Shown here: one piece after another, positions 15,305 to 24,606 of the stretch | How the letters are laid out: each line of letters opens with the position of its first letter | Numbering within the stretch: the first letter of the stretch is position 1 | Assembly: GCA_013151215.1 (NCBI GenBank) | Contig: JAADIS010000011.1 | Span: 1 to 32,153, forward strand | Reading direction: 5' to 3' | Source of the DNA: Chlorobiota bacterium | Lineage (GTDB): Bacteria; Bacteroidota; Bacteroidia; Bacteroidales; F082 | Length of the DNA: 32,153 nucleotides | Notes under the pieces: generated by a model | Database searches by the model: none | The model's input: the letters and a program-made list of their open reading frames with translations, nothing else | What the model was told of the DNA's origin: nothing | Translations under genes and position numbers: made by a program

Positions 15305-17215
15305 TTATTTATCATCAACTTCCTCAAAATCAACGTCTGTAACCTCATCATCACCGCTTCCGGCCCCGTCGTTCCCGTTTTCCGGGGCTGCGTTTGGAGG
15401 CGTTTGACCTGCCTGAGTATCTTTATACATGTCCTCGCTTGCTTTCTGCCACGCTGCATTAAGTTTCTCCATTGCAACATCGATAGCAGGGATATCCTGA
15501 CTTTTATGAGCTGTCCTTAAGGCTTCGAGACCGCTTTCGATCTCCGATTTTTTATCGGCGGGAAGTTTGTCGCCGTATTCCTTAAGTTGTTTTTCCGTTT
15601 GGAAGACAAGTGCATCGGCAGCATTAAGCTTGTCAATTTTTTCCTTGGCTTTCTTATCGGCATCGGCATTGGCCTCGGCATCGGCTTTCATTTTTTTAAT
15701 TTCCTCATCGGAAAGGCCCGAAGAAGCCTCGATCCTGATACTTTGCGATTTCCCGGTTGCTTTATCTTTAGCGGAAACATTCAAGATGCCGTTCGAGTCG
15801 ATATCGAAAGCCACTTCGATTTGAGGGACGCCTCGAGGTGCTGGTGGAAGCCCGTCAAGGTGGAATCGTCCGATACTTTTATTTTGATTTGCCATCGGGC
15901 GCTCGCCCTGGAGTACATGTATCTCGACAGATGGTTGGTTATCGGCTGCGGTAGAGAAGGTCTCCGACTTCTTAGTAGGTATTGTTGTATTCGACTCGAT
16001 CAGTTTTGTCATAACACCACCTAAGGTTTCGATACCCAAAGAGAGAGGTGTTATGTCAAGAAGGAGCACGTCTTTAACCTCACCGGTAAGAACTCCGCCC
16101 TGTATGGCTGCACCAATGGCAACAACTTCGTCGGGATTAACACCTTTTGAAGGTTCTTTTCCGAAGAAATCCTTGACAATAGCCTGAATGGCCGGTATGC
16201 GCGTCGATCCCCCAACGAGTATTACATCGTCTATATCGCTTGCCGTCATTGAAGCATCCTTGAGGGCTTCTTTACACGGGGCAAGGGTTGCTTGTATCAA
16301 ATGATCGGCCAATTGTTCGAATTTAGCACGTGTAAGCTTGCGGACCAAGTGTTTTGGCACACCGTCAACGGGCATGATGTATGGCAGGTTGATTTCTGTT
16401 TCAGTCGAGCTGGAAAGCTCTATTTTTGCTTTTTCGGCAGCTTCTTTCAAACGCTGGAGCGCCATTGGATCTTGTTTTAAATCAAGCCCTTCATCGGACT
16501 TAAATTCGTCGGCAAGCCAGTTTATAACAACCTCATCAAAATCATCGCCGCCAAGGTGGGTGTTGCCGTTAGTTGATTTTACCTCGAAAACGCCATCTCC
16601 GAGCTCGAGAATTGAGATATCGAAAGTACCGCCACCAAGGTCGAAAACTGCAACAGTGCGGTCTTCCATCTTTTTATCGAGGCCGTAGGCGAGGGATGCC
16701 GCTGTGGGCTCGTTGATAATCCTCTTTACTGTTAAACCTGCTATTTCCCCGGCTTCCTTTGTGGCCTGGCGCTGCGAGTCGTTGAAATATGCAGGAACGG
16801 TAATTACTGCTTCAGTTACCGTTTGCCCAAGATAATCCTCGGCGGTTTTCTTCATTTTTTGAAGAACGATGGCCGAGATTTCCTGAGGCGTGTACATCCT
16901 GTCATTAATTTTCACGCGAGGCGTGTTGTTGTCACCTTTAACGACATTATAAGGCACGCGGTTGATCTCCTTCGAGACTTCGCCAAAGGAGTTGCCCATA
17001 AATCGTTTTATCGAGGAAACGGTATTTATTGGATTTGTAATTGCTTGTCTTTTTGCGGGATCACCTACTTTTCTTTCTCCATTGTCGGTAAAGCCAACTA
17101 TAGAAGGAGTAGTACGGCGTCCTTCACTGTTTGGAATAACTACCGGCTCGTTACCTTCCATTACGGCAACACATGAGTTTGTAGTTCCTAAGTCGATTCC
17201 GATTATTTTTCCCAT
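15305..17215 (-). CDS. dnaK: Molecular chaperone DnaK (Hsp70)
   Basis: The product (636 aa) is a full-length Hsp70: an ATP-driven cytoplasmic chaperone working with DnaJ and GrpE. Seen: N-terminal [16 protein letters not shown], the phosphate loop [29 protein letters not shown], the linker [15 protein letters not shown], a substrate-binding beta domain ([20 protein letters not shown]), a helical lid rich in Lys/Ala/Glu, and the acidic tail [10 protein letters not shown]. Neither dnaJ nor grpE is next to it; it stands alone with its own terminator. No TAnnTTTG box was found upstream, so it may use a different promoter class. Confidence 0.98.
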
Positions 17216-17280
17216 TTTATCTTTATTTAATTATTTGTATTAATCTTTAACTCTAATTTATGTGATCGGTTTTGTGCTTT

Positions 17281-17295
17281 TCAAGTATTATGCCA
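17281..17295 (-). promoter_or_regulatory. Sigma-54-like sequence upstream of dnaK
   Basis: On the minus strand TGGCATAATACTTGA fits the -24/-12 pattern TGGCAc-N5-TTGCa, except that the -12 GC is GA. It lies 66 nt upstream of the dnaK ATG. A tentative call, made partly because no -7 box is present. Confidence 0.2.
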
Positions 17296-17413
17296 CTAAA
17301 TGAATAATGACAACATGGCAGAAAACTGATAACGGCCTTTGCCGTACGGGAAAAACTATCACGGAAGGGCATCAAATGTGCACGGCTGGGAAATATAGAC
17401 GGCTTGCGTTTTA

Positions 17414-18388
17414 TTATTGTTTGGGCTGGAACCCCAGGTCAGGATACTCGGAGATCAGTTTCAGCTCAGTCTGGACAGAAAGGCCAACCTCTTTTATAAT
17501 TGTTCTCCTGGAAGCAAAAATCCCGTAACCGCCTTCGATGTTCGTATAAACGGGCACTTCCGACAAGAGGTTGTCGTTACCTTCGTTTACTTCGATATAA
17601 GTATCAAAAACCTGTGATGCGCTGGCGATAACAACATCTACATTGCCAGCCCACCTTTTAACATTCAGAGGTTTGTCCAATTGGTTTTCAAGTGTCGAAT
17701 AAAACGCATTCCCTAAATAACCTATATACATATCCTCGCCGCCGTCAAGGGTGTTCGATTTACGCATGCCCAGATACCAACCTACTGATCCATAGGTAGT
17801 ATCGGACGAACCTGCAAGGAGCTCCTTATAGTGAAAAACAAGGCTTGCCTCGTAACGCTTGCCGTTTTTCCCGCTATACCATTCAATATCCTTGTCCGAC
17901 ATGAAATTAATATAGCGATTAGGGTAGCTTATTGTAAAGTCGTTGACCAAGCCGGTTTCGGCTGTTAAATTTTCTTGTTGCTTGTTAATGGTCAGGGTAT
18001 ATTTATAATCTGCGTCGAGTGCTTGTGTAGTATAGTAAACCAGCTGGTTAGGAAAATAAAAAACGCTATCGCCCGGCTTCTTGTTCTTGATCGTGATAGT
18101 GTCAAAAACTATGGTCTGCTTTTCAATCCCGTTTTCAATCCCCTTGATCTTAACATCCAATTTATAACTATAATTACTGGAATCAGGATCTTGGGCAAAC
18201 ACAATTGCGTTTCCGGGGCCGGAAAATGCTTTGGTAACCTTCAACCATGTAGTGTCGTCCGACGAATCCAACAATCCGTAAACAACAGTTATATCCTTAT
18301 AATCGGCATAAATGTCAACATCGTTGCTGCATGATGAGAAAAGTGAGGAAGCAAGTAATATTACGAATATAGGTTTAAAAATTCCCAT
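17414..18388 (-). CDS. Lipoprotein of unknown function, DUF4249-like
   Basis: The product is 324 aa from ATG 18388. A lipoprotein signal is clear: MGIFKPIFVILLASSLFSSC with Cys 20, followed by SNDVD; an acidic stretch just after the Cys is a known surface-export signal in Bacteroidota. The mature part (DITVVYGLLDSSDDTTWLKVTKAFSG) resembles a Bacteroidota lipoprotein family close to DUF4249, whose members often sit with TonB-dependent receptors; none is here. An in-frame ATG at 18484 lies within the pepA terminator hairpin and upstream of the -7 box, so I reject it. Exact family not certain. Confidence 0.75.
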   Translation of the reverse strand: MGIFKPIFVILLASSLFSSCSNDVDIYADYKDITVVYGLLDSSDDTTWLKVTKAFSGPGNAIVFAQDPDSSNYSYKLDVKIKGIENGIEKQTIVFDTITIKNKKPGDSVFYFPNQLVYYTTQALDADYKYTLTINKQQENLTAETGLVNDFTISYPNRYINFMSDKDIEWYSGKNGKRYEASLVFHYKELLAGSSDTTYGSVGWYLGMRKSNTLDGGEDMYIGYLGNAFYSTLENQLDKPLNVKRWAGNVDVVIASASQVFDTYIEVNEGNDNLLSEVPVYTNIEGGYGIFASRRTIIKEVGLSVQTELKLISEYPDLGFQPKQ

Positions 18389-18414
18389 TGTTGTTTTAAT
18401 TAAAATTGAAAGGT

Positions 18415-18422
18415 CAAAATTA
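18415..18422 (-). promoter_or_regulatory. Putative -7 box for the lipoprotein gene
   Basis: TAATTTTG on the minus strand, 27 nt before the ATG at 18388, which supports that start. Confidence 0.45.
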
Positions 18423-18476
18423 GGATTTATTTTCAATATAGTATAGAACAATACTGTTAAAAACCCCATCTGCGAC

Positions 18477-18503
18477 AAAACCACCTTGATTTTAGGTGGT
18501 TTT
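18477..18503 (-). terminator. Terminator of the hpt-adk-pepA operon
   Basis: AAAACCACCT (18477-18486) and AGGTGGTTTT (18494-18503) form a perfect 10-bp stem with a 7-nt loop, 26 bp past the pepA stop. The four T of the stem base give the T-run on the minus strand. Confidence 0.8.
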
Positions 18504-18529
18504 GAGATTTTTTGATCTAAAGCGGGTTT

Positions 18530-19966
18530 CTATAAGCTCTTTTCTTTTATGAAATCATAAAGCAACCTCACCCCGACCCCGGTGCCCCCGGCAGGTTTGT
18601 AGGCATCCCTTTTCGTAAGGAAGGCAGGCCCGGCAATATCCAGGTGGACATAAGGGTAATCGGTAAAATGCTCAAGGAACTTACCGGCTGTAATGGCGCC
18701 TGCATCTACGCCGCCAATATTTTTCAGGTCGGCGATTTCCGATTTTATCATTTCCTTATACTCATCCCACAGAGGGAATTCCACAATTCGCTCATGAACC
18801 CTGAAGGCCGCCTTTTGAAGCTCCGCGAAGTCCTGTTCGCATTTCGATTGCATGCCTACCATTGCGTTTGGCCCTATTGCCCTTGAGGCGGCGCCTGTCA
18901 AGGTGGCAACATCGATAACAAGCCCGGGCTTGAATTTCTTGGCGTAACTAAGTGCGTCGGCCAAGATCATCCTTCCTTCGGCATCGGTATTTAGTACTTC
19001 AACGGTAGTGCCGTCATGCATTGTAATTATGTCGCCGGGCGTATAGGCATTTCCGTCAGGACGGTTGTCAGTGGCCGGAATCAAGACAACTACATAAACG
19101 GGAATCTTGGCTTTGGCTATGGCATAAATTGCTCCGGCCACGGCCGCACCGCCACCCATATCGCATTTCATGGTATCCATAAAATTTGACGGTTTCAAGC
19201 TAAGCCCACCGGTATCGTAAACAACACCTTTGCCTACAAAAACATAGGGGTCTTTATTTATTGCGCCCTCAGGTTTCCATTCCAGCACCGAAAAAGTGGG
19301 CGGGTCGATACTGCCCCTGTTAACTGCGAGCAGGCCGCCCATCTTAAGGCTTTCGATTTTCTTTTTGTTAAAAACCTCGACCTTGAACCCGGCTTCCTTC
19401 CCCAAGGATTTAAATTCTTCTGAAAACTGCACAGCCGTTAGGTATTGAACCGGCTCGTTCACCATGTCCCTGGCAATATATACCGCCTCGACGATTATCC
19501 TCAGTTCCTCGATGTCGTCTTCCGTTGCATCGTTGCAGTATATATCAAGCTGCTCGAAACAGGATTCCGCTTTTTCGCTGTCCGTCTTGTATTTTGCGAA
19601 TTTGTAATTTGCCAGCAACAGCCCCTGCGAAAGGCTGAACACATCGTCCTTCACTCCGCCGGCTGTTTGCAGCACAACTCTTTCTATTTTATTTTTAACA
19701 ATCAGCAACTGGGTTTCAGCCCCAAGCTTGCGGAGGTTTTCGGCTCGCTCCACCTTAGTGCCCTGCCCGTCGCAAAAAACAATGAACAGGTGGTTTTTAA
19801 ACCTGTTTATCTCAACGACGCCGGATTTCGACCGGTGCATTTTTTTTACCCATTTGATTTCATCATCACTTAAACCAAGCTTGTTTAAGTCGTTATTGGC
19901 TTTTATTAAAAAAACCGTATCGGCGGCAGTTGGTTTGCGCAGCGCCTTGCGAATAATTGTATCCAT
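18530..19966 (-). CDS. pepA: Leucyl aminopeptidase (peptidase M17)
   Basis: The product (478 aa) is a two-metal cytosolic aminopeptidase that removes N-terminal residues from peptides. Seen: an N-terminal regulatory half, then the catalytic half with VGKGVVYDTGGLSLKP (metal-binding Lys and Asp), MKCDMGGGAAVAG, and the family signature NTDAEGRMILADAL, which holds metal-binding Asp and Glu and the catalytic Arg. The C-terminal GVGVRLLYDFI is usual for the family. It starts 27 nt after the adk stop and ends at a strong terminator, so it is probably the last gene of hpt-adk-pepA. Confidence 0.94.
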   Translation of the reverse strand: MDTIIRKALRKPTAADTVFLIKANNDLNKLGLSDDEIKWVKKMHRSKSGVVEINRFKNHLFIVFCDGQGTKVERAENLRKLGAETQLLIVKNKIERVVLQTAGGVKDDVFSLSQGLLLANYKFAKYKTDSEKAESCFEQLDIYCNDATEDDIEELRIIVEAVYIARDMVNEPVQYLTAVQFSEEFKSLGKEAGFKVEVFNKKKIESLKMGGLLAVNRGSIDPPTFSVLEWKPEGAINKDPYVFVGKGVVYDTGGLSLKPSNFMDTMKCDMGGGAAVAGAIYAIAKAKIPVYVVVLIPATDNRPDGNAYTPGDIITMHDGTTVEVLNTDAEGRMILADALSYAKKFKPGLVIDVATLTGAASRAIGPNAMVGMQSKCEQDFAELQKAAFRVHERIVEFPLWDEYKEMIKSEIADLKNIGGVDAGAITAGKFLEHFTDYPYVHLDIAGPAFLTKRDAYKPAGGTGVGVRLLYDFIKEKSL

Positions 19967-19993
19967 TAAAGTTTTATTTAATTGGGAACAGCA

Positions 19994-21163
19994 TTAATAG
20001 TTCGATCTGCAAATTGAATCTACCTGTTCCGAAAGCAGTTCAAAAACCTTGTGGGCGTTCATCTCTGCTTTAACTGAAATATATTTATCTTGTTTTTTAT
20101 AAAAATCCAAGACCGGCATGGTCTTGTCGTTATATTGTTCGAGCCTGTTGACGATAAGTTCCGCACTCTCGTCATAGGGCCGTTTTCGGTCAGTTCTCGA
20201 TCGTGCCGACAACCTCTTGACGGCTTCGAGGGTTGACACTTTCATGTCGATAACACCCGACACTTTCATTCCTTCCCTGCGGAGCAGTCCGTCAAGAATA
20301 TATGCCTGTACAATAGTCCTCGGGAAACCCTTGAATATAAATCCGTTGGCATGAGGGTTCTTCTTGATCTGTGTCTCGATGAGCTTAATCGGTATCTCGT
20401 CCGGGACAATCTCACCTTTGTCCATATAAGGTTTGGCGATTTTTCCTATTTCCGTATTATCGGCAACTTCCTTTCTCAGCAGTTTGCCTGTTGAAATATA
20501 AATAAGGTCGTGCTTATCGGCAAGAAGCCTTCCTTGAGTGCCCTTGCCCGAGCCCGGACGACCCAATAAAACAATATTGGAATAGGCTTTCTTCCGGTTT
20601 TTCTCAACCACATCAACTATATTACCGAATATATCATCTATTTCGCCAACCCCGTTAATGGGAAAATATTTATGTTTTTTGTCGTAAAAATCGGCAACGG
20701 GTTTTGTCTTGTCGTTGTACTCCTGCAATCTCACCTTGATCACTTCCAAGGTATCGTCGGACCGGCCCGAGGTTTTAGCCCTTAGGATCAAGCGGTCTAT
20801 GAGCTCTTTGTCAGGCACTTCCAAACTTATCATGCAGTCGAGCTTGCTGTTAAGCTTAAGCAATAAGCCTTCCAATATATAGGCCTGGACGGTAGTCCTC
20901 GGGAAACCGTCAAAAAGAATTCCTTTCGACTCGGTATCGGTTTTGATCTTCTTTTCGATTATCCTCACGATCAACTCATCGGATACCAGCCCGCCTGTTT
21001 CGATAACCGACTTGGCCTCCATTCCCAGCTCGGATCCTTCTGCGATCTCGGAACGGAGCATGTCCCCGGTGGAAATGTAAGTTAGATTGTATTTATGCAG
21101 TAGTTTTTCGGATTGAGTGCCCTTGCCAGCGCCGGGAGGGCCAAATAACGCAATATTTAACAT
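19994..21163 (-). CDS. adk: Tandem adenylate kinase (two fused domains, the second degenerate)
   Basis: The product (389 aa) is twice the usual core length. Domain 1 (~1-190) has a complete active site: P-loop GPPGAGKGT (8-16), STGDMLR (31-37), FDGFPRT (84-90), Arg residues at 124 and 128, a short lid with GRSDD (133-137), and VRLQEYNDKTKPV. Domain 2 (~194-389) repeats this order: P-loop GRPGSGKGT (201-209), STGKLLR, FKGFPRT, lid RTDRKRPYDES and NRLEQYNDKTMPV. In domain 2 the Asp of STGD and the Asp of FDGFPRT are both Lys, and the lid DD pair is changed. Domain 1 should interconvert ATP, ADP and AMP; domain 2 may bind nucleotide but is probably inactive or altered. It follows hpt by 37 nt. 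Confidence 0.92.
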   Translation of the reverse strand: MLNIALFGPPGAGKGTQSEKLLHKYNLTYISTGDMLRSEIAEGSELGMEAKSVIETGGLVSDELIVRIIEKKIKTDTESKGILFDGFPRTTVQAYILEGLLLKLNSKLDCMISLEVPDKELIDRLILRAKTSGRSDDTLEVIKVRLQEYNDKTKPVADFYDKKHKYFPINGVGEIDDIFGNIVDVVEKNRKKAYSNIVLLGRPGSGKGTQGRLLADKHDLIYISTGKLLRKEVADNTEIGKIAKPYMDKGEIVPDEIPIKLIETQIKKNPHANGFIFKGFPRTIVQAYILDGLLRREGMKVSGVIDMKVSTLEAVKRLSARSRTDRKRPYDESAELIVNRLEQYNDKTMPVLDFYKKQDKYISVKAEMNAHKVFELLSEQVDSICRSNY

Positions 21164-21200
21164 AGAATTTGTTTTTAATAGATTAGAAATTTAACCGGCT

Positions 21201-21737
21201 TTATTCTTCAATTATATAAATATCTTTTAAATTCCGTCCCTGTCTGTTATAATCAAGTCCGTAACCAATAATAAATTCATTGCCAATATCAAAACCTTTA
21301 TAATGAATCTCATAGTCGCGCTTAAAAGCAGCGGGCTTAAACATCAGTGTCGCAACCCTGACCTCATGTGCGCCCCTGTCCTTCAATTGTTCCAATACCC
21401 TTTCCATGGTAAGCCCCGAATCGATAATATCCTCTAATACAACGATGGTCTTCCCGTAAATGTCTTCATCGAAACCTATCAGCTGACGAACGTTTTGCGT
21501 CGATTCGGTGCCTGAGTAGGATGCGAGCTTCACGAAAGAAATCTCACAGTTCAAGGTGATATGTTTGAGCAGGTCGGCGGCAAACATAAACGACCCGTTC
21601 AAGACCGATAAAAACAAAGGCTTCTGACCTTCAAGGTCTTTGTTGATCTCCCAGGCTATTCTTTTAACCTCTTCCTCAATCTTCTCAAACGGTATAAAAG
21701 GCCTGAAAAATTTATCGTGAACCTGAATTACATTCAT
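21201..21737 (-). CDS. hpt: Hypoxanthine phosphoribosyltransferase
   Basis: The product (178 aa from ATG 21737) salvages hypoxanthine/guanine to IMP/GMP using PRPP. Seen: the PRPP-binding motif VVLEDIIDSGLTM, upstream LFLSVLNGSFMFAADLLKHI, SFVKLASYSGTES, and C-terminal FIIGYGLDYNRQGRNLKDIYII, all characteristic of HPRT. A TTG nine bases upstream is possible, but ATG 21737 gives the usual N-terminus (MNVIQVHDKFFRPFI) and lies 27 nt after a -7 box. First gene of the probable hpt-adk-pepA operon. Confidence 0.93.
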   Translation of the reverse strand: MNVIQVHDKFFRPFIPFEKIEEEVKRIAWEINKDLEGQKPLFLSVLNGSFMFAADLLKHITLNCEISFVKLASYSGTESTQNVRQLIGFDEDIYGKTIVVLEDIIDSGLTMERVLEQLKDRGAHEVRVATLMFKPAAFKRDYEIHYKGFDIGNEFIIGYGLDYNRQGRNLKDIYIIEE

Positions 21738-21764
21738 AATTATCAATTATTTAACAAAAGTTTA

Positions 21765-21772
21765 CAAAGATA
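21765..21772 (-). promoter_or_regulatory. Putative -7 box for the hpt operon
   Basis: TATCTTTG on the minus strand, 27 nt before the hpt ATG. Confidence 0.45.
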
Positions 21773-21780
21773 TAATTTAG

Positions 21781-21811
21781 CCTGAAAAGAAATCTATTTC
21801 AGGGTATTTTT
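21781..21811 (+). terminator. Plus-strand terminator-like hairpin between divergent hpt and ridA
   Basis: CCTGAAA (21781-21787) and TTTCAGG (21797-21803) form a 7-bp stem with a 9-nt loop, followed on the plus strand by GTA and eight T. No plus-strand gene ends just upstream, so its purpose is unclear; it could stop transcription running antisense out of the hpt region before ridA. Confidence 0.5.
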
Positions 21812-21896
21812 TTTGTTTTAAAAAATATTTGGGGAATTTAACAATCATGTATCGCAAATAAAATAAGACTACAATAAAACTTATTGCTAGTTTTTG

Positions 21897-21904
21897 TAGA
21901 TTTG
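21897..21904 (+). promoter_or_regulatory. Putative -7 box for ridA
   Basis: TAGATTTG matches TAnnTTTG, 27 nt before the ATG at 21932. Confidence 0.45.
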
Positions 21905-21931
21905 AAGTTTAAACAATAATAATAATTAGTG

Positions 21932-22315
21932 ATGAAAAAAGTAATTTATACACCCAATGCCCCTGCGCCAATAGGGCCTTATAGTCAAGCAATTGAACAA
22001 AACGGCATGCTCTTCGTTTCTGGCCAGATACCCGTTGACCCGGTTACCGGAAATGTTGTTTCGGGAGGTATCGCACAGCAAACCGACCAGGTTTTAAAGA
22101 ACATACAGGCAATTGTTACCGCTGCCGGCTATGGCGCCGATTTGTCGAAAATCATAAAATGCACTATTTACTTGAGCGATATGTCCAATTTTGGCGGGAT
22201 GAACGATGTTTACGCCACTTATTTCCCGACAGATCCGCCTGCTCGTGCTGCTTTTGCCGTAAAAGATCTGCCTTTGGGAGTGATGGTGGAAATAGAAGCC
22301 GTTGCGATGATATAG
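21932..22315 (+). CDS. ridA: RidA family protein (reactive intermediate deaminase)
   Basis: The product is 127 aa from ATG 21932; a GTG at 21929 directly before it is possible. It has the full RidA/YjgF pattern: APIGPYSQAIEQNGMLFVSGQIPVDP, the middle VTAAGYGADLSKIIKCTIYLSDM, and the end PPARAAFAVKDLPLGVMVEIEAVAMI with the Arg and Glu that bind imino acids in the family. RidA clears reactive enamines such as 2-aminoacrylate formed by PLP enzymes. It converges on pabA with 50 bp between stops, in which I see no gene or strong terminator. Confidence 0.94.
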   Translation: MKKVIYTPNAPAPIGPYSQAIEQNGMLFVSGQIPVDPVTGNVVSGGIAQQTDQVLKNIQAIVTAAGYGADLSKIIKCTIYLSDMSNFGGMNDVYATYFPTDPPARAAFAVKDLPLGVMVEIEAVAMI

Positions 22316-22365
22316 AAGCCAAGACAAATTCTACTTTTTAATGTATAACACTTTGGCATCCAACA

Positions 22366-22932
22366 TTAAGCCGAAAGCCAGTTGCCGATCATCTCTTTTC
22401 CGAAATCGGTCATTATAGACTCCGGGTGGAACATCAACCCTTTGATGTCCAGGCTTCTATGTCTTACAGCCATAGGCATGCCGTTTTCATCTTTTAGCAG
22501 GATGCCCAATTCGGCGGGCATATCTGTTTCATAAATAATCCACGAATGATAGTGGCCTATAGCAAAGCGGCCCGGCAGGCCCGTGAAAATTTTATCGTTC
22601 ACGATAATTTCCCCGTGATTTTTTATCCCGTGCATGGGCTCGTCCATTTTGCTAAGCCGGGCCCCAAACATTTTGCCTATAGCCTCGTAGCCCAGGCAAA
22701 TTCCAAGGATCGGCTTGCTCTTATATACTTTTAACAGAAACTCCATAAGCTCACCGGCTTCGGCCGCTGTGCCTGGCCCCGGGGATATCAAAACCTTTTG
22801 GAAAACATTTGGGTCAATGTTCAACAGCTTGTCGTTTTTTACTATCATATAATCGAAAAGCCCGCATTGCTCAACCAGCTGAACAACATTGTAAGTGAAG
22901 GAATCGTAATTATCGATGATGAGAAGCCTCAA
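22366..22932 (-). CDS. pabA: Aminodeoxychorismate/anthranilate synthase component II (glutamine amidotransferase)
   Basis: The product (188 aa) is a class I glutamine amidotransferase supplying ammonia to a chorismate-using partner. Seen: NYDSFTYNVVQLVEQ, ISPGPGTAAEAGE, the nucleophile elbow GICLGYEAIG with the catalytic Cys, IGHYHSWI, and the catalytic His-Glu in GLMFHPESIMTDFG. I choose PabA over TrpG because pabB and pabC are next door and no tryptophan genes are. The start is TTG (22930-22932): this gives the usual N-terminus, no in-frame ATG lies between it and the -7 box, and the leader would be very short. Confidence 0.88.
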   Translation of the reverse strand: MRLLIIDNYDSFTYNVVQLVEQCGLFDYMIVKNDKLLNIDPNVFQKVLISPGPGTAAEAGELMEFLLKVYKSKPILGICLGYEAIGKMFGARLSKMDEPMHGIKNHGEIIVNDKIFTGLPGRFAIGHYHSWIIYETDMPAELGILLKDENGMPMAVRHRSLDIKGLMFHPESIMTDFGKEMIGNWLSA

Positions 22933-22947
22933 AACTATATTTTTCTA

Positions 22948-22955
22948 CAAAAGTA
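22948..22955 (-). promoter_or_regulatory. Putative -7 box for pabA
   Basis: TACTTTTG on the minus strand, 15 nt before the TTG start at 22932; it fixes the possible start region. Confidence 0.45.
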
Positions 22956-22975
22956 AAAAAACCCCTGTCTAAAAT

Positions 22976-23491
22976 CTAAAAACTGTAACTAAGGCCGAAC
23001 AAAGGGCTCAGGAGCATATAATCCCAAACCAAGACCTTTGCGCCAACTTCAAAACCAAAGTGCCGGAACTGAAAACCAATACCGGTCCCCAGGTTCAGTT
23101 CACCCCTTAAATTACCATCGTCAACAACCAGGTCGGCACCACCTTGTGCAAAGAAATCCAAACTTTTAATATTCATATATCTGCGATAAGCGATTCCAGT
23201 TTTGACAACAGTGAGCGTATTGCGAAAACCAAAATAACTAAACTTGGCAAAAAGCATATTGTCGTTGCTTAAAAAATATCCATATCTTACACCAAGGGTG
23301 GACGTCACGAAACCCTGGCCAAAACCGAAAGATAAATCTTGCAAGGCTAACTGGCTGCTCCCCTTTTTCAGGTAATTATTCGTAAAAGGATTTTCCCCCG
23401 ATATGGATGAACGAGTATCTGTCTGTGAGAAGAGGTTGTTACCAACTGCACCTAAGATGAGCAATAAGGTTAATAAATAAAATTGTTTCAT
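22976..23491 (-). CDS. Small outer-membrane beta-barrel-like protein
   Basis: The product (171 aa) begins with a signal peptide (MKQFYLLTLLLILGAVGNNLFSQ). The mature part has alternating short strands (FVTSTLGVRYGYFLS, MLFAKFSYFGFRNTLTV, GTGIGFQFRHFGFEVGAKV) and ends in Phe (SPLFGLSYSF), as outer-membrane barrels often do. Function unknown. It lies between pabA and pabB on the pabA strand with its own -7 box, so a role in p-aminobenzoate synthesis is unlikely. Confidence 0.75.
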   Translation of the reverse strand: MKQFYLLTLLLILGAVGNNLFSQTDTRSSISGENPFTNNYLKKGSSQLALQDLSFGFGQGFVTSTLGVRYGYFLSNDNMLFAKFSYFGFRNTLTVVKTGIAYRRYMNIKSLDFFAQGGADLVVDDGNLRGELNLGTGIGFQFRHFGFEVGAKVLVWDYMLLSPLFGLSYSF

Positions 23492-23532
23492 GATGTTTTA
23501 CGTTTTTTGTTGATAATTGATGTTTTCACCGA

Positions 23533-23540
23533 CAAAATTA
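23533..23540 (-). promoter_or_regulatory. Putative -7 box for the small outer-membrane protein gene
   Basis: TAATTTTG on the minus strand, 41 nt before the ATG at 23491; divergent from the pabB box at 23593. Confidence 0.4.
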
Positions 23541-23592
23541 TCTTTTAATAAAAACAAATCCTATTATTTTAAGTTTTTTCGATCAATAATTA

Positions 23593-23600
23593 TATTTTTG
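23593..23600 (+). promoter_or_regulatory. Putative -7 box for pabB-pabC
   Basis: TATTTTTG matches TAnnTTTG, 31 nt before the pabB ATG. Confidence 0.45.
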
Positions 23601-23631
23601 TTATCATTTCAAGAAAATACCAAAGCCGAAT

Positions 23632-24606
23632 ATGCCAAATAAATCAGACCATATAATATCCAGTTTGAATGCTTTAGGCAAAGAGAAAGTCCCTTTTCTC
23701 TTCGTCTTCGACTTTCTATGTGAGAAACCCATAATTATAAAGTTAAAAGAAATTGATAATAAAGCGGTTATGTATTCGGTAAATGGAATAACGAATGCTC
23801 AGAGCTATGATTTCGGGAACAGGCCGCTTAGTTTTGATGTTGAAGTCGTTGGGAAAAGCCGATACCGAAAAGCTTTCGATATAGTGCAGCGACATATTCG
23901 CCATGGCGACTCTTTTTTGTTGAACCTGACGTTTCCCAGCCCAATCGAATCGAATTTTGGCTTAAAGGATATTTTTTATGCAAGCAAGGCCAAATATAAA
24001 CTTTGGGTAAAGGATGGTTTCGTTGTTTTTTCGCCCGAGATATTCGTAAGGACAAAAAACAACATTATCAGCTCTTTTCCAATGAAAGGCACTATTGACG
24101 CCGATGTTCCAGAAGCAGAAGAAAAATTGCTGTCGAGCGAAAAAGAGCTGGCCGAGCATTATACCATAGTGGACCTGATAAGGAACGACCTAAGCATAGT
24201 TTCAAAGAATGTGAGGGTAGAAAGGTTCAGGTATTTAGAGAAAATAAAAACCAACCGTGGCAACTTGCTGCAAATGAGCTCTAAAGTCAGCGGCGACTTG
24301 ACTGTGGGATGGCAGGAAAACTTAGGGGGGATTTTGATGAGATTGTTGCCGGCCGGATCAATTTCAGGGGCGCCTAAAAAGAAAACCATCGAGATAATCA
24401 AGAAAACCGAAAAATATGACCGGGGATATTATACCGGTGTTTTTGGCATTTTCGACGGGGAAAATATCGATAGCGGGGTAATGATACGCTTCGTGGAAAA
24501 AACAGATAGCGGGTTAATATACAAAAGCGGCGGCGGAATCACTGCAAGGAGCGATCCTGAAGAGGAATATGACGAGTTGCTGCAAAAGGTCTATGTTCCT
24601 TTATAA
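23632..24606 (+). CDS. pabB: Aminodeoxychorismate synthase component I
   Basis: The product (324 aa) is the chorismate-binding subunit that turns chorismate and ammonia into 4-amino-4-deoxychorismate. Seen: FVVFSPEIFVR, the PMKGTI motif with the Lys (152) typical of PabB rather than anthranilate synthase TrpE, HYTIVDLIRNDLSIV, LLPAGSISGAPKKKT, and the end GYYTGVFGIFDG to SGGGITARSDPEEEY. It is shorter than E. coli PabB because most of the N-terminal region is missing, as in other Bacteroidota. pabC follows after 23 nt on the same strand; the amidotransferase gene is 0.7 kb away on the other strand. Confidence 0.92.
   Translation: MPNKSDHIISSLNALGKEKVPFLFVFDFLCEKPIIIKLKEIDNKAVMYSVNGITNAQSYDFGNRPLSFDVEVVGKSRYRKAFDIVQRHIRHGDSFLLNLTFPSPIESNFGLKDIFYASKAKYKLWVKDGFVVFSPEIFVRTKNNIISSFPMKGTIDADVPEAEEKLLSSEKELAEHYTIVDLIRNDLSIVSKNVRVERFRYLEKIKTNRGNLLQMSSKVSGDLTVGWQENLGGILMRLLPAGSISGAPKKKTIEIIKKTEKYDRGYYTGVFGIFDGENIDSGVMIRFVEKTDSGLIYKSGGGITARSDPEEEYDELLQKVYVPL

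Follow-up and report, generated by a model that had tools for sequence, protein, structure and literature searches.

Tandem adenylate kinases of Bacteroidales with a putatively retired second domain whose Mg-site acids are replaced by lysine or other residues

Textbooks present adenylate kinase (ADK) as an essential enzyme, and it is mostly regarded as a single-domain equilibrator without regulation; two Mg-site Asp residues hold its Mg2+ water shell, and the Gln of the FPRTxxQ motif contacts the AMP adenine. Multi-domain adenylate kinases with two ADK domains per chain are known from eukaryotes, namely AK5, AK8 and AK9. In the open-access literature we found no description of a bacterial tandem ADK in which one half is dead, and nothing on the role of the Mg-site Asp residues in ADK; a Walker B role described in PMC9599734 agrees with an Asp holding the Mg2+ shell. 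The pseudokinase STRAD-alpha offers a measured precedent, since its Arg215 and His200 stand in for the cation and ATP is bound cation-independently (PMC4718504). The proposal made below for the second domain (D2) of a tandem ADK would be analogous, in that basic side chains would take the place of a divalent cation and a dead domain would support an active kinase. However, STRAD-alpha has a protein kinase fold and is a separate polypeptide, whereas D2 has an ADK fold, is fused in cis and is a candidate nucleotide binder. With stand-alone bacterial Adk (PF00406; NCBIfam NF001381), the first domain (D1) has its fold, motifs, hpt–adk gene order and catalytic residues in common; unlike stand-alone Adk, the tandem protein carries a fused D2 with Lys at the position of the DGFPR Asp, a lid insertion and lost acids.

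The window analysed here is a stretch of 32,153 nucleotides, in which the tandem ADK open reading frame occupies positions 19994..21163 of the minus strand and encodes 389 aa from an ATG start. An earlier note on this DNA had described two ADK domains in one protein, and Pfam ADK (PF00406) indeed matches two separate stretches of it. A search of the full assembly (3.7 Mb in 154 contigs, 98.57% complete) with the same profile gave 168.4 bits for D1 and 154.4 bits for D2, both above the cut-off of 26.8, and no further ADK beyond these two halves. D1 and D2 are 41% identical (80/193 aligned positions). The gene lies between hpt upstream and a leucyl aminopeptidase gene (18530-19966) downstream; an hpt match recurs in the flanks of 73 of 80 named relatives (the best 80 of 548), the pepA neighbour of the window in only 4 of these 80 loci. 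Rfam gave no match at gathering scores over positions 17000-24000. The features referred to below are as follows.

19994..21163, minus strand: tandem ADK gene (389 aa), with no other ADK found in the assembly (Pfam, genome profile search)
20582..21163, minus strand: D1, residues 1-194, intact ADK (profile, alignment)
21116-21142, minus strand: D1 P-loop GPPGAGKGT (codons checked)
21062-21064, minus strand: D1 D34 (codons checked)
20909-20911, minus strand: D1 D85 (codons checked)
20861..20887, minus strand: D1 helix QAYILEGLL, same signature as the D2 helix (alignment)
19997..20581, minus strand: D2, residues 195-389, modelled as a complete ADK fold, with the Mg-site acids replaced
20537..20563, minus strand: D2 P-loop GRPGSGKGT, which holds K207 (alignment, codons)
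20483..20485, minus strand: D2 K227, replacing the STGD Asp (alignment, codons)
20474..20476, minus strand: D2 R230, AMP-site Arg, equivalent of A. aeolicus R36 (alignment, codons)
20330..20332, minus strand: D2 K278, replacing the DGFPR Asp (alignment, codons)
20282..20308, minus strand: D2 helix QAYILDGLL, whose signature recurs in D1 and in a minority of single ADKs
20168..20188, minus strand: D2 lid segment RKRPYDE around a two-residue insertion (alignment, codons)
21201..21746, minus strand: hpt (hypoxanthine phosphoribosyltransferase), upstream neighbour

Residues were compared in an alignment of 253 tandem sequences, 187 of them non-redundant; many are close relatives, and the counts below are not independent events. 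D1 of the window carries STGD, FDGFPRT and GRSDD exactly as first reported, and its P-loop Lys, five catalytic Arg, DGFPR Asp and lid Asp pair are all present. K14, T16, R37, D85, R89, Q93, R124, R128, R134, D136, D137 and R145 are each found in 187/187 D1s; position 34 is Asp in 161, Glu in 24 and Asn in 2. The catalytic cage, made up of one Lys and five Arg according to PMC11835391, comprises K13, R36, R85, R124, R150 and R161 in Aquifex numbering and was mapped via aligned ranges and motif spacing; its D1 counterpart (K14, R37, R89, R128, R134, R145) is complete in 187/187.

The D2 motifs GRPGSGKGT, STGK, FKGFPRT and KRPYDE were likewise read correctly, and the codons bear out the claim that two Asp have become Lys in this domain, at K227 and K278, where a competent ADK has Asp. 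The earlier note had reasoned that many homologues with a normal Asp would mark the change as a sequencing error or a local oddity, and had called for an alignment of second domains across adk–adk fusions. That alignment has Lys at position 278, that of the DGFPR Asp, in 181/187 tandem proteins (with Asn, Asp and Thr in 2 each), which rules out both explanations for K278. The two D2s with Asp278 (L273, L274) have both lost R282, a cage Arg, and the two with Asn also lack another cage residue each. Thr or Asn stands at this position in L299, L300, L254 and L255, the last of which keeps the STGD Asp; these D2s are possible intermediates. Among short ADKs (150-260 aa, 55 fetched), 53 have Asp at the DGFPR position, and the other two (L303, L306), which have Lys, are D2 halves of tandems truncated where the contig stops. 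Position 227, that of the STGD Asp, reads Lys in 84 of the 187 D2s, Glu in 29, Ser in 29, Ala in 16, Pro in 12, Gln in 4, Asn in 3 and Asp in 3, with others in the remainder.

The phosphate cage of the window D2 is present in full (K207, R230, R282, R321, R328, R340), with R328 shifted by the lid insertion. Across the 187 D2s, position 207 (P-loop Lys) is Lys in 121, Arg in 65 and Met in 1; position 230 is Arg in 128; position 328 is Arg in 126 and Met in 53; position 282 is Arg in 174, Ser in 8 and otherwise varied; Q286 and R340 are found in 187/187 each. A full cage of Lys and five Arg occurs in 109/187 D2s, all of which carry K278 (109/109) and none Asp or Glu at 227 (0/109); a full cage combined with Asp or Glu at 278 was found in none of the 187 tandem proteins. 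Loss of canonical catalytic residues throughout a family, one mark of a pseudokinase, is what D2 displays, and judging from these residues it is very probably catalytically inactive.

Were K227 and K278 to replace the Mg2+ ion in function, D2 could instead be a metal-independent or altered-specificity ADK, a reading suited by the full Lys and five-Arg cage of the window protein, to which two Lys are added, and by the purifying selection reported below. This we consider highly improbable. Phosphate transfer by the Aquifex enzyme falls from >500 per s with Mg2+ to 7.5e-4 per s without it (PMC11835391), and K278 persists in 63 of the 65 D2s whose P-loop Lys is replaced by Arg; in 57 of these 65 the AMP-site Arg R230 is missing too (8 keep it), and activity is very unlikely there.

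The lid required a correction. The earlier register, which set KRPYDE against GRSDD plus T, is replaced by one in which the D2 lid is two residues longer than that of D1, D331 aligns with D136 and E332 with D137. The claim that the lid pair is changed therefore holds for the second acid, which is E332 in the window and variable elsewhere, and not for the first, which is kept as D331 in 186/187 D2s, next to a Tyr (Y330) in 185/187. R328 is likely the match of D1 R134, with one extra residue on either side, a correspondence judged by spacing, as MAFFT sets R328 beside a gap. The proposal of an active kinase joined to a pseudokinase thus stands in modified form, with an intact D1 and a D2 that appears to have lost part of its chemistry; the loss of lid acids had been overstated.

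Close tandems (type A, 60-97% identical to the window protein) were counted by eye in 61 of the 119 genomes drawn from the window's family, its own included; the others comprise one with the tandem in pieces (G076), five without a match and 52 with single-length matches only, and one of the 61 sequences (L012) runs off the end of its contig. Besides type A, 22 of the 61 genomes have another tandem paralog (type B, 46-54% identical), 5 a separate single ADK and 1 a further fragment, whereas 33 show no second ADK (all by eye). The draw from the order gave a tandem in 71/295 genomes (own included; by eye), spread over 35 families, and no match in 9/295. In the phylum draw, tandems were found in at least 7 of 395 genomes besides the window's own, all from other classes, a count that may be low as at most four candidates were scored per genome. 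A contig scan with the D2 alignment returned 551 stretches matching two peptide patterns, of which 548 were confirmed as relatives; one of the two patterns lacks the Lys, and 548 is thus not a count of Lys-bearing D2s. The best 80 of the 548 are all tandem. The nearest named relative among these 80 is from a Bacteroidetes MAG (JAJRQZ010000053.1, 97% over D2), and the other labels include Bacteroidales, Lentimicrobiaceae, Marinilabiliales and Salinivirgaceae, with one Chlorobiota and one Sphingobacteriia.

The types differ in their cages. All six residues K207, R230, R282, R321, R328 and R340 are present in 61/61 type A D2s. In types B (22 sequences) and C (7 sequences, from other classes), the P-loop Lys is Arg in 29/29, R230 is present in 0/29 and position 328 is Met in 27/29 (one Val, one gap); K278 and Y330-D331 are nevertheless kept in 29/29, and Pfam finds two ADK stretches in 6/6 of the type B/C proteins tried. 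By eye, no shared neighbourhood was evident in 11 type B/C loci (5 B, 6 C; ORF beginnings), one of which (L323) has an hpt match about 2.5 kb off. Elsewhere in the order the D2 grades intergrade, as the 8/65 P-loop-Arg D2s with R230 illustrate. The conservation of these residues speaks for nucleotide binding by D2s of the window type. It would not be a property of the whole D2 family, given types B and C and the 65/187 D2s in which Arg replaces the P-loop Lys, R230 being absent from 57 of them. What types B and C retain suggests that some D2 role can survive partial loss of the cage.

Which domain serves the cell can be approached through the genomes themselves. The 32 that we checked with Pfam comprised 16 chosen type A genomes, 7 type C genomes, 2 that carry two tandems and 7 of other kinds. 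Each of the 16 type A genomes has two ADK matches and no more, both belonging to the tandem; one of these genomes (G002) is a single contig, 99% complete. In a genome of another class (G314, 100% complete), the sole ADK is a type C tandem whose D2 lacks the P-loop Lys and the AMP-site Arg; D1 must therefore do the work there. The other 6 of the 7 type C genomes also carry a separate single ADK, so that a type C D1 need not be the main enzyme. Moreover, one genome has a D2 in decay and a second has probably lost it (below), so that D1 looks like the working enzyme.

Selection on D2 was gauged in 28 chosen pairs of close relatives of equal length; pN/pS is quoted rather than dN/dS because synonymous changes are saturated in many pairs. 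It ranges from 0.015 to 0.200 in D2, lies above that of D1 in 19 of the 28 pairs, equals it in 1 and is below it in 8, with a gap of at most about two and a half fold; between the window protein and L004, dN/dS is about 0.04 in D1 and D2 alike. D2 is under purifying selection, somewhat weaker than that on D1. Neutral decay is opposed by pN/pS values at or below 0.20 in 28/28 of these pairs. D2 could still be relaxed, non-functional baggage on its way out, as the 19 pairs with higher pN/pS, its greater divergence (mean identity 51%, as against 62% in D1) and its decay or absence in two genomes would allow. Besides the pN/pS values, the near-invariance of K278, Q286, R340, Y330 and D331 over several classes and the occurrence of tandems in 35 families of the order draw argue against such a reading, to which we give very little credence.

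In one of these two genomes (G076, L115), the reading frame is open through D1, whereas numerous stops and frameshifts interrupt D2, which is apparently decaying; an assembly error, if that were the cause, would have to have left D1 untouched. Genus g234 includes two species with the tandem and another, G758, with a single ADK, followed directly by obgE, that best matches the D1s of those two (74%), and D2 has probably been lost in this lineage. Some single ADKs also fall among D1s in a quick tree, which we rejected as proof of D2 loss because an AU test allows all 30 single ADKs to form one clade (p 0.576); it is G076 and G758 that make the case for loss. Genera g2 and g12 have single ADKs that are each other's best matches, and these may either have lost D2 or be older than the fusion. 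In view of the losses and the 19/28 pairs, the role of D2 would be weaker or not universal.

The same tree (115 rows, quick method, no bootstraps) separates 44 D2s (SH-aLRT 99) from the D1s and single ADKs (99), with the type B/C D2s as a subclade of D2 (SH-aLRT 99). The tandem sequences of other classes (type C, L033-L039) lie interspersed among type B sequences from the window's order, a pattern that makes transfer of a degraded tandem ADK between classes likely. On this comparative evidence, many Bacteroidales ADKs carry an old D2 that is kept by selection and in which the acids are swapped for Lys or other residues. Because the swap is old and the copy kept, D2 probably binds nucleotides without catalysis.

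An AlphaFold2 model of the whole protein has a mean pLDDT of 91.1 and a pTM of 0.65, and the placement of D1 relative to D2 is accordingly uncertain. Modelled D2 (194-384) superimposes on 5ycb_B with Z 28.6 and rmsd 1.2 over 185/186 residues, as expected of a predicted complete ADK fold. In ten-residue blocks of the AMP-site and lid regions, pLDDT is 75-86 in D1 and 93-97 in D2, a weak hint from the model that D2 prefers one conformation. By sequence, 97 distinct solved structures match D2, the best 60 of which are all named adenylate kinases, and none of the 51 best matches to the whole protein exceeds 245 aa, so that no tandem ADK relative was found among them. The top Foldseek match for the whole protein is a sperm axoneme chain, PDB 9fqr_G8, presumably AK8; at a TM-score of 0.40 and rmsd of 14.2, a common domain arrangement is not supported.

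D2 might instead be purely structural, packing against D1 as a built-in pseudo-dimer that stabilises it, with the D2 pocket residues kept for folding. The helix after the FPR motif, QAYIL[ED]GL, is near-invariant and in the same place in both halves: Tyr and Gly are found in 248/253 and 249/253 D1s and in 253/253 and 252/253 D2s (redundant set), compared with 11/55 and 12/55 short ADKs, two of which are D2 pieces. QAYIL.GL may be a D1–D2 contact or a trait that predates the duplication, and since some single ADKs carry the signature too, it may be older than the fusion. Types B and C, which keep K278 and Y330-D331 (29/29) though much of the cage is gone, also fit a structural role. Against it, six cage residues in 61/61 type A D2s are more than one would expect folding by itself to require, and D2 can be lost. 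We regard a purely structural D2 as doubtful.

Our preferred reading is of an active ADK joined to a retired, metal-free, nucleotide-holding D2 that tunes or steadies it, to which we assign a probability of about 0.5. D1 would perform 2 ADP <-> ATP + AMP for the cell, and D2 would be an old fused duplicate whose chemistry was lost. Type A D2s keep the phosphate pocket, with Lys in place of both Mg2+-shell Asp in the window, and D2 would bind an adenine nucleotide without Mg2+ and hold it without phosphate transfer; in this nucleotide-bound state it would tune or steady D1. Of the separate parts, metal-free nucleotide binding by type A D2s seems to us an even call, and an effect on D1, which might be regulation, stabilisation or localisation, is moderately favoured over D2 acting by itself. 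The remodelled pocket might also hold another ligand, such as a dinucleoside polyphosphate, an alarmone or a partner protein: K227, K278 and the five Arg would suit a multi-phosphate ligand, and the lid insertion has a near-invariant Tyr. Yet Q286, the Gln of FPRTxxQ, is present in 187/187 and fits plain adenine nucleotides, and we think another ligand very unlikely.

A stronger form of the metal-free, nucleotide-holding reading, in which D2 is a lysine-for-magnesium sensor of metal-free ATP, ADP or AMP with allosteric control over how fast the cell's only ADK works, is a tentative possibility. If it were true, ADK would be under an inbuilt feedback from energy charge (or free Mg2+) that is found across many Bacteroidales families and has been passed in degraded form to other classes. 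A widespread, old and selected ADK–pseudoADK serving as the only ADK would give this enzyme an in-cis regulator, and the natural variants (full cage with Lys, degraded cage, D2 lost) form a test set for Mg2+-free nucleotide sensing.

Some further arrangements were encountered. L331 (1424..5137, G597) has hpt, a tandem ADK, a single ADK (199 aa) and obgE in order (hpt and obgE by eye), so that three ADK domains follow one another; the D2 of this tandem still has Asp278 but lacks the FPR Arg. By eye, a single ADK lies behind an Hpt-like domain in L141 (316..1500, same class, family f7) and L307 (2..952, G656). L141 resembles the tandem in that an ADK is fused to a further domain, here its usual gene neighbour Hpt, and differs in that the partner is Hpt and the ADK a single normal copy. 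In the window itself, beside dnaK, 17414..18484 encodes a protein with a borderline DUF4249 match (28.8 bits, cut-off 28.5).
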